In this document: one piece after another, positions 23,312 through 32,099 of the stretch
Position numbering within the stretch: position 1 is the stretch's first letter
How the letters are laid out: each line of letters starts with the position of its first letter
Source: a virus
Strand: one strand, 5' to 3'
DNA: 33,946 bases
Virus record (IMG/VR): IMGVR_UViG_3300043446_000646
Coordinates: 1-33,946 of that record
Position numbers and translations under genes: made by a program
Notes under the pieces: model-generated
Told to the model about the DNA's origin: nothing
The model's input: the letters and a program-made list of their open reading frames with translations, nothing else
Databases searched by the model: none

Positions 23312-23627
23312 GGATAGCTTGGTATCCCGCCCCTCCCGAAGGGACTGATCTGTAGTCCCACCCAGAGTACCCATGAGGCAGCTATTCATCCGACATTGGC
23401 TTGGTCTACCACCCGTGTACCAATGTCTACCCTAGTCCCTAGCTGACAGGCTAGTCGAGTTCCTGGGGGTGTACCAGTCCCGGTGTTTACTGGGTGCGGC
23501 CCATGCAGGCCCATTAGCTGACGCGCCCTGACGGCTGCCGTAGAAGCAAAAAAACCACTTACTGCTGTATCCCGGTGGCAACCCGCTGGACTAGACATCC
23601 TTTGGGCGAGATACATGAGTAAGTGGT
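23312..23627 (-). ncRNA. Candidate structured noncoding RNA (hairpin chain)
   Basis: Stems that I can pair are: ten bp ACCACTTACT/AGTAAGTGGT (23554-23563 with 23618-23627) enclosing GTATC/GATAC; CCAGT/ACTGG (23474-23493); CTAGC/GCTAG (23439-23454); eight bp GACATTGG/CCAATGTC (23392-23399 with 23420-23427); GGGACT/AGTCCC (23341-23359); CCAAG/CTTGG (23314-23332); and ACGG/CCGT plus GGCC/GGCC near 23498-23541. The strand is uncertain: the seven U after the largest hairpin favour -, but an inner stem (CCGGUGG/CCGCUGG) pairs fully only on +. No known ribozyme core recognised. Confidence 0.4.
23548..23627 (-). terminator. Second terminator-like long hairpin
   Basis: A 10-bp outer stem, a 3x3 internal loop, a 5-bp second stem and a 38-base inner region, followed on the - strand by seven U. 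It could back up the terminator at 23671 or end a short RNA. Confidence 0.55.
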
Positions 23628-31181: not shown

Positions 31182-32099
31182 TCATCTTTGGGTGTCCCGG
31201 TGCAGTTGCAGGATCTCGGCCGGCAGTCTGTCCGGGTTCGGGGTCAGGCCTTCGATCCGGTAGGCTTCGATGATGCACTCCAAATGCTCTTCAAATTGTT
31301 GTCGACTTATGTAAAGTTCTTTTACAACCTGGTTGTACATAACAACCTTATCTATACCCTTGTTCTTTCGTTCGGCACAACCTCTGGAGGTTGTAGAAAT
31401 TGCATCAAAAGGTTGTGCCTGGAGATCAATTGGTTGTACAACCTCTGGAGGTTGTGTGTGTGATGGGTTATCCACAGGATTAGATACAACCTCTGAAGGT
31501 TGTGTCTTAGACCTCCTTGACTTGACCTTGGCGATGTCTTCCTTCATCTTTTGTACCGTCCTTGACTGTCCTTTTGCTGGCATGGTTGGTTCCTTTCTGG
31601 GGGGTTGGTTGAGTGCTTTGGCCACCAGGTCAGCTATCCTGCGCTGGCCTGCTGGGTCTGGTGCTGCGGCCTGTTCCTCCTTCATCCAGGGCGGTCTGGT
31701 GTCCTCGATGGTGCTGACCAGGCTGATGGCATCCTCGCCTGAGATATTGGGGTCAAAGATCACCCGCCAGGTGGTTGTGCGCTCGCCTGGCCTGGGCTTA
31801 CGCATGACCTCCAGGTAGCCTGCCTTGACCAGCTTGATCAGGTGCTTGCTGATGCCTTGCTGGCTGATACCCAGCTTGGATGCCAATGTGTTCTGGCTCA
31901 CCCAGGTGATTCCTGAGCGGTTCATGTAGCTGCAGATCAGCACAAAGGTACGCATCATGCCAAGCGTGATCTGCTTGTCAATGCAGGCGCGTATTGGCAC
32001 CACGCAGAGTCTGCGCTGGTCTGGTGGCGATTCGTGCAGCTTGATCCGAGGCTTCTTCGGGATCTTCAGCGGCACCACATTGTCAAGCGTCACGGTCAT
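31182..32099 (-). CDS. Winged-helix replication initiator (lambda O-like organisation)
   Basis: A 305-aa DNA-binding protein. Residues about 42-117 form a winged helix: LGMMRTFVLICSYMNRSGITWVSQNTLASKLGISQQGISKHLIKLVKAGYLEV with the wing TTTWRVIF. A basic linker follows, then a low-complexity part (about 195-262) whose DNA encodes the iteron dyads, and a C-terminal helical end (SRQQFEEHLECIIEAYRIEG). N-terminal DNA binding plus binding sites inside the gene is the layout of lambda O. It would bind its own gene and load the host replisome. No helicase loader gene is visible. A plain transcription factor is the alternative. Confidence 0.75.
   Translation of the reverse strand: MTVTLDNVVPLKIPKKPRIKLHESPPDQRRLCVVPIRACIDKQITLGMMRTFVLICSYMNRSGITWVSQNTLASKLGISQQGISKHLIKLVKAGYLEVMRKPRPGERTTTWRVIFDPNISGEDAISLVSTIEDTRPPWMKEEQAAAPDPAGQRRIADLVAKALNQPPRKEPTMPAKGQSRTVQKMKEDIAKVKSRRSKTQPSEVVSNPVDNPSHTQPPEVVQPIDLQAQPFDAISTTSRGCAERKNKGIDKVVMYNQVVKELYISRQQFEEHLECIIEAYRIEGLTPNPDRLPAEILQLHRDTQR
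31377..31503. repeat. Three 18-bp iteron dyads
   Basis: ACAACCTCTGGAGGTTGT lies at 31377-31394 and 31438-31455, and a one-base variant (GAAGG instead of GGAGG) at 31486-31503. Each is an 8-bp inverted repeat with a 2-base centre, with one mismatched arm position in the variant. The first is read in a different protein frame (TTSRGC) from the other two (TQPPEVV, TQPSEVV). Confidence 0.9.
31468..31476 (+). promoter_or_regulatory. Consensus DnaA box
   Basis: TTATCCACA, a perfect match to the DnaA box consensus TTATNCACA, between the second and third iterons. Confidence 0.75.

Follow-up and report, generated by a model that had tools for sequence, protein, structure and literature searches.

The chain of hairpins between the scaffold and capsid genes of the window, the 33,946-base virus record analyzed here over its whole length, is part of a genuine structured RNA gene of approximately 360 bases, which is encoded on the minus strand and has its own predicted promoter. 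The structure, strand, and family of this RNA were established by comparison among phages, and the ends of its transcript are inferred. It represents a new family of large ornate phage RNAs resembling GOLLD and ROOL, and by covariance model it is a member of neither. Within the sequences searched, the family is widespread, occurs only in phage sequences, and has no match in Rfam; the hosts of the metagenomic phages were not identified. The initial annotation, made without database searches, had proposed a possible unnamed phage RNA at 23312-23627. This proposal is supported by covariation, a covariance-model match, a dedicated predicted promoter, and the absence of both a conserved reading frame and an Rfam match. 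The hairpins it described are present on the minus strand, and its interval nearly equals the RNA without stem-loop 1, with the last conserved hairpin closing at 23312 and 23627 lying at the beginning of stem-loop 2.

The RNA gene and its surroundings

The window derives from a podovirus-like phage encoding RecT and an O-like replication protein, with late genes on the minus strand. No match to an RNA polymerase family was found among the window proteins searched, and the relative MEP301 is reported to lack genes for both RNA polymerase and DNA polymerase (PMC8024684). The scaffold, or capsid assembly protein, gene (24505-23741, minus strand; 254 aa) lies upstream of the RNA. Its product had no PHROG match and showed 46% identity to the protein annotated for capsid assembly in MEP301. 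The major capsid gene (23113-22271, minus strand; 280 aa; PHROG 3437 major head protein, E 1.4e-55) lies downstream, leaving a gap of 627 bases. The folding z-score of this 627-nt region was −4.7 on the minus strand and −3.6 on the plus strand (20 shuffles each).

A strong terminator and a strong promoter had been claimed to flank the hairpins, and both are present there. The intrinsic terminator of the scaffold gene occupies 23699-23671, and the capsid gene promoter occupies 23278-23252 (TTGACA at 23278-23273, a 15-nt spacer, and TATAAT at 23257-23252), both on the minus strand. The conserved leader of the capsid gene (23245-23114, minus strand) is a separate element that is kept in relatives with or without the RNA. 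It is probably structured; an alignment of 36 sequences yielded no consensus structure. The predicted sigma-70-type promoter of the RNA itself has a weak −35 box (TTGTGC, 23689-23684) within the loop of the scaffold terminator and a −10 box (TATAAT, 23665-23660, minus strand) approximately 8 nt ahead of the first stem.

The whole RNA extends over 23655-23294 on the minus strand, from stem-loop 1 to a start codon at the 3′ end, both transcript ends being inferred from sequence. Stem-loop 1 (23655-23635) carries the loop GTGGCAA (23647-23641), which pairs with TTGCCAC (23581-23575) inside stem-loop 2. The latter (23628-23548) is terminator-like with seven T residues at its end, and corresponds to the "10+5-bp closed hairpin ended by a U run" of the initial annotation, which was thus correct on this point. 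The 3′ domain core (23536-23362), supported by covariation, contains six helices including a pseudoknot. It overlaps a highly conserved 57-nt block (23537-23481; CCGTCAGGGCGCG...GTAAACACCG) that was evident in the type-1 alignments and in a comparison of locus L020 with the otherwise unrelated phage ctfne034, in which 57 of 59 nt (96.6%) were common to both. The loop of hairpin P4 (23456-23430), CAGCT (23445-23441), pairs with AGCTG (23383-23379) to form pseudoknot P5, and the 8-bp hairpin P6 occupies 23427-23392. Two more hairpins near the 3′ end (23359-23341 and 23328-23312) are followed by the conserved terminus CCACCCTTGGGGAACCTATG (23313-23294), which comprises a Shine-Dalgarno-like GGGGAA and the start codon. 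This codon opens a 38-aa mini-ORF (MSKKKYL...; 23296-23180) overlapping the capsid gene promoter; all of these features are on the minus strand. Stem-loop 1, the two pseudoknots, and the second promoter inside the terminator, which is predicted to start the RNA, had been missed initially.

Covariation, strand, and reading frames

The 3′ domain occurs in two types, and that of the window is type 1. The type-1a 3′ domain (28 diverse sequences) comprised 32 pairs including the pseudoknot and was 99.2% paired, and 23 of these pairs showed two-sided changes; none of 500 shuffles reached the observed value, and slid controls were 31-48% paired. Pseudoknot P5 was paired in 100% of the 28 sequences with two-sided changes at three of its five pairs, and hairpin P6 showed such changes at all eight pairs. 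The type-1b 3′ domain was represented by 30 sequences, almost all of them from other phages; its structure, which is independent but has the same layout, was 96.6% paired, and 25 pairs had two-sided changes. The shuffles gave the same result (0/500), and slid controls were 21-43% paired. The type-1a structure was built by hand, and both structures were derived from the sequences on which they were scored, which biases the percentages of pairing in their favor; the double changes and the shuffles are independent of that bias. A search for covariation over related phages had been suggested by the initial annotation, and compensatory changes were indeed found in the stems. It had also held that homologous regions lacking stem conservation or carrying an intact coding frame would refute the RNA. 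This refutation failed: the stems covary, and the relatives have no conserved reading frame.

Cells with GU pairs exceeded those with AC by 60:6 and 77:7 in the two alignments, and the RNA is therefore assigned to the minus strand. A covariance model derived only from type-1b sequences of other phages detected the window copy at 23536-23363 (97.8 bits, E 7.9e-27), as well as all five other type-1 loci searched, and gave no significant score at type-2 or empty-slot loci. No reading frame was conserved across the RNA region, in which the longest ORFs varied in strand, frame, and length among relatives sharing the same RNA. By the same count, the longest ORF was at most 40 aa in the 88%-identical relative L003 versus 91 aa in the window. 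ORFs of 69 and 94 aa in this region of the window were considered as genes and rejected, being unconserved in relatives.

The 3′ end of the RNA resembles a translation start, as inferred from an NTG codon and a preceding GGGGAA or GGAGAA. Among 110 type-1 copies, NTG lay 17 nt past a C[CT]ACCC motif in 97 and nearby in 12 more (109/110), the codon being ATG in 85, TTG in 16, GTG in 8, and CTG in none. In phages carrying the RNA at the capsid slot, this codon opens only a mini-ORF (MSKNS or MPK followed by a stop; 38 aa in the window), with a length of 1-15 codons in most of these relatives. In other phages, real genes begin at the codon or a few bases beyond it. The capsid-slot subset of the type-1a alignment (22 sequences) showed two-sided changes at 22 of 32 pairs, with 99.9% of cells paired. 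Because covariation persists in these phages, where only a mini-ORF and a capsid gene with a promoter of its own follow, the RNA is maintained without a gene directly behind it.

Exchangeable modules and distribution

Every RNA had the same 5′ layout, a short hairpin whose loop pairs inside a second hairpin ending in a U run. At least six contiguous Watson-Crick bases joined the loop region to stem-loop 2 in all 85 modules tested; the mean pairing length was 8.0, compared with a mean of 5.2 and a maximum of 5.6 after partners were swapped, and 50 distinct pairing sequences were represented. Several versions of the 5′ domain are unrelated in sequence and share this layout. One version precedes both type-1 (L227 and L145) and type-2 (L235 and L239) 3′ domains; therefore, modules have been exchanged, and 5′ and 3′ modules are swapped among phages. 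Of 126 upstream sequences, 96 contained a promoter with at least 8 of 12 matches that ended 7-8 nt ahead of stem-loop 1; scores of this kind were rarely attained by shuffled sequences.

The type-2 3′ domain is unrelated to that of type 1, yet the two are interchangeable. It contains a pseudoknot, for which 22 distinct loop pairs gave a mean of 6.2 contiguous pairs, compared with 4.2 and at most 5.2 after swapping, and an 8-nt direct repeat, one copy of which lies past GGCTCCG and the other at the 3′ end past CACCA. The two copies were identical over at least seven bases in 50 of 50 cases, encompassing 19 different octamers (observed, 8.2; swapped, 3.8). The repeat brackets the last hairpin and varies in concert (L235, L236, L239-L249, L248, and other type-2 loci), and at the capsid slot it differs between phages (TAGAGGGT, TAGGGCAT, CAGAGGGT, CAGGGCAT, and ATGGGGAC). 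No complementary pairing partner for the octamer was found within the RNA, and we offer no explanation for its concerted variation.

Some members contain additional domains. In L020 (3410-3570), L087, L112, and L115, an extra domain of approximately 170 nt links the 5′ and 3′ domains. It carries an arm resembling the T-arm of a tRNA (UCUGGUUCGAYUCCAGA), and the 8-bp stem below this arm covaries (UCGGGUUG/CAAUCCGA and UCAGAUUG/CAAUCUGA); ARAGORN made no call on the domain. Three other unrelated linker domains of approximately 80-190 nt lie between stem-loop 2 and the 3′ domain in L006/L132, L016, and L049. A more diverged type-1 version (5′ end ...CACCTTCGGGGCTCTCACC..., 3′ end TCACCCAACCCCTGGCTTTGG) was present in L234, L139, L147, L180, and L195, partly in larger phage contigs.

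A search of IMG/VR with the capsid protein retrieved 80 loci with 69-98% identity. Among the 73 relatives with both flanks, the scaffold-capsid gap was short (178-315 bp) in 50 and long (571-978 bp) in 23. Short gaps consisted of the terminator, the capsid promoter, and the leader, with the terminator joined directly to the promoter. The long gaps held a type-1 RNA like that of the window in 16 cases, a type-2 RNA in 5, and an ORF instead in 2 (HTH in L009 and HNH in L018). The RNA at the capsid slot is thus an optional insert, 50 of 73 relatives being empty. Both the empty-slot relatives and MEP301 have a short intergenic region at the capsid gene and share the gene order of the window, and the former also share its terminator, capsid promoter, and leader, but neither contains the RNA insert.

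Other occupants of this slot were also observed. In L018, the HNH gene is accompanied by only the 3′ tail of type 1, whereas in L009 (3380-3850) an HTH-type ORF of 155 aa and a tandem repeat (GGGTAGTGTCAAAT) replace the RNA. Another RNA-like insert (GGGGAAAGCGGATGCTGGC...GACGTAGCGAGTACCC) occupies the slot in L017 (2690-2950, whole) and L021 (3740-3810, partial).

Pattern scans of IMG/VR recovered at least 119 stretches with type 1 and at least 120 with type 2, and each 3′ domain was spread over non-homologous phages. Of 191 distinct instances, 64 were followed by an ORF for a replication-initiator C-terminal-like protein, 52 by that for the capsid protein, 16 by one for a Zn-ribbon protein, and 12 by one for an HNH protein; in the remainder the next ORF belonged to more than 20 other kinds, and YbcO-like proteins were also among the downstream types. 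In many phages, the RNA follows a cro-like gene and precedes a replication gene. When 35 records were searched whole, 18 had a type-1 match and 15 a type-2 match, with one RNA each and none with both; one type-1 record gave two pattern matches 71 bases apart, and two of the 35 were missed by the exact pattern. The types may therefore have equivalent functions, a possibility resting on a weak test because the records had been chosen by one type.

Within the collection of named phages, the RNA was found only in ctfne034, and no copy was found in plasmids. The type-1 pattern had four matches in 84,980 GTDB genomes, all in apparent coding DNA, and these were rejected as chance; exact patterns may miss diverged copies. 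The RNA had no match in Rfam 15, and searches of the window and related loci at gathering and relaxed thresholds returned only weak sub-threshold sRNA matches, mostly at the scaffold terminator. No description of it was found in the open-licence PMC literature searched. It may nevertheless be listed as an unnamed candidate in a large catalogue of structured viral RNAs predicted by computation.

Related RNAs and possible functions

We compared the RNA with GOLLD, ROOL, and HEARO (the omega RNA of IscB/IsrB), which are Rfam RF02032, RF03087, and RF02033, respectively. GOLLD is a large, pseudoknotted, phage-encoded RNA with a conserved 3′ region and a variable 5′ region, sometimes with a tRNA in a linker (PMC12286853). 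Our RNA likewise has a variable 5′ domain, a conserved 3′ domain, and, in a few members, a tRNA-like linker domain. It differs in being half the size (approximately 360-430 nt versus >800), in having two unrelated interchangeable 3′ domains, in not matching the GOLLD covariance model, and in that no tRNA gene was found near it. ROOL is a large, ornate, pseudoknotted RNA whose function is not known and which is encoded by phages and a wide variety of prophages (PMC12286853). The present RNA is also phage-encoded, large, ornate, and pseudoknotted, with a function that has not been shown, but it is smaller, does not match the ROOL covariance model, and has no convincing copy among the GTDB genomes scanned with the type-1 pattern. 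Similar to HEARO, it sometimes adjoins an HNH gene; however, these HNH proteins are stand-alone endonucleases of approximately 110 aa and are usually absent, and there was no covariance-model match. No IscB/IsrB protein with a RuvC-like domain was seen among the downstream clusters or representatives scanned. The RNA matched no Rfam group I or group II intron model, lies between complete genes in the window, and was not called as a tRNA or tmRNA by ARAGORN or Rfam. The put RNA of HK022 and the EAR element are RNA antitermination elements with which phage or operon transcripts begin, close to promoters and terminators. Our RNA shares with them a structured nature and a position at a predicted transcript start near a promoter and terminator; however, it is much larger and has no sequence link to them. 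Antitermination is suggested only by analogy.

The reading we favor, which is the likeliest one although it falls somewhat short of even odds, is a stand-alone structured RNA acting in trans during infection in the manner of GOLLD and ROOL; trans action is inferred, and no transcript data exist. Host RNA polymerase would initiate at the sigma-70-type promoter whose −35 box lies in the scaffold terminator, presumably at stem-loop 1. The nascent 5′ domain would form two stem-loops joined by a loop-to-stem pseudoknot with a U run at the end, where some transcripts probably terminate. Readthrough past stem-loop 2 would produce the RNA of approximately 360 nt with the conserved 3′ domain, which may act as a structured RNA or RNP particle on a molecular target not yet identified. 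Its 3′ end would double as the translation start for whatever gene comes next. This reading is favored by the covariation and the GU/AC asymmetry, the covariance-model match, the promoter ahead of stem-loop 1, the lack of a conserved reading frame, the upkeep of the RNA at the capsid slot without a cargo gene, the occurrence of the same RNA before many different genes, the single RNA per record with types 1 and 2 never together, and the optional nature of the insert. Against it, a ribosome-binding site and start codon are found at the 3′ end nearly everywhere, and the RNA generally seems to be codirectional with the next gene, as a cis leader would be. Moreover, efficient termination at the U run of stem-loop 2 would remove the 3′ domain, and no transcript, target, partner, or phenotype supports trans action.

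The main rival, which ranks below the trans reading and which we consider rather more likely to be wrong than right, is a cis-acting leader. Here, the 5′ domain would be an attenuator or an antitermination element like put RNA or EAR, and the 3′ domain would control or load translation of the following gene or operon. This explanation is supported by the fixed place of the start codon at the 3′ end (109/110 copies have NTG there, and none has CTG), downstream genes often starting within approximately 20 nt of the RNA end, and the terminator-like stem-loop 2 directly behind the promoter. In addition, the site that the RNA occupies in many phages, past a cro-like gene and ahead of a replication gene, is the place of nutR/tR1 in lambda. 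The U-run hairpin and the 3′ start codon could serve as an expression platform, although such control is only inferred. Against a cis leader, the downstream genes are highly diverse with no constant class (capsid, replication, Zn-ribbon, HNH, YbcO-like, and >20 others), and the capsid-slot RNA is kept and covaries even though it opens no real gene and the capsid gene is served by a separate promoter and leader. A ligand-specific riboswitch is further disfavored by the interchangeability of two unrelated 3′ domains.

A small mobile element, consisting of the RNA and an HNH or other cargo gene with the RNA guiding or assisting mobility, is unlikely. Several phages (L010, L244, and L248) have an HNH ORF immediately behind the RNA, an HNH gene accompanies the type-1 3′ tail in L018, presence and absence at the capsid slot are clean, and the type-2 octamer, with one copy within the RNA and the other at its 3′ junction, resembles a guide and its target. 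However, this HNH family followed the RNA in only 12 of the 191 instances, neither a transposase nor a RuvC-type nuclease was seen, no target-site rule was found, and the differing capsid-slot octamers indicate no obvious fixed target sequence. There is still less to recommend a self-cleaving or self-splicing ribozyme of an undescribed class. The size, two pseudoknots, highly conserved stretches, and concerted type-2 octamers would fit; on the other hand, there is no Rfam ribozyme or intron match, no interrupted gene, and no cleavage data. Plain regulatory DNA, in which a terminator, a promoter, and debris of inverted repeats would have gathered at a recombination hotspot and no RNA would function, can be all but ruled out because of the covariation (0/500 shuffles in two independent sets), the covariance-model match, the GU/AC asymmetry (60:6 and 77:7), and the near-identical 3′ block in unrelated phages, even though the slot also gathers other inserts (the HTH ORF of L009 and the HNH gene of L018).

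The roles suggested in the initial annotation, namely packaged or assembly RNA, small regulatory RNA, ribozyme, and mRNA-stability element, stand as proposals only. The case for packaging or assembly linked to the capsid locus is weakened by the many phages in which this RNA lies far from capsid genes and by its absence from most relatives of the window phage.

The trans-acting RNA also permits a bolder reading, which as one joint claim remains a possibility only. Types 1 and 2 would be alternative forms of one phage-specific RNA machine with exchangeable, sequence-unrelated modules that have only their architecture in common: stem-loop 1 pseudoknotted to the U-run-ended stem-loop 2, followed by a pseudoknotted 3′ domain ending at the start codon. 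This machine may act in trans as an oligomeric RNA assembly, a host-defence decoy, or a takeover RNA, with the type-2 octamer marking an RNA-templated or RNA-guided step. If a counter-defence or takeover RNA is indeed involved, a common phage weapon would have been overlooked by protein-based annotation. Large ornate phage RNAs are few (GOLLD and ROOL) and their function is an open question, to which a new family widespread in environmental phages is now added. The RNA is small enough for structural and genetic work and offers swapped modules, presence/absence pairs, and the concerted octamer repeat; nature has already run the experiment of emptying or filling the slot in related phages, and 3D modelling can draw on strong covariation among the many homologues.

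A replication-origin RNA was also considered, since a replication gene often follows the RNA and the scaffold-capsid slot of L009 is occupied by an HTH/repeat ORF. It was disfavored by the iteron-like repeats that the window phage has in its own O-like gene, 8 kb away. These three 21-nt palindromic repeats (TACAACCTCTGGAGGTTGTGT; 31376-31505) are likely to constitute a lambda-type iteron origin.
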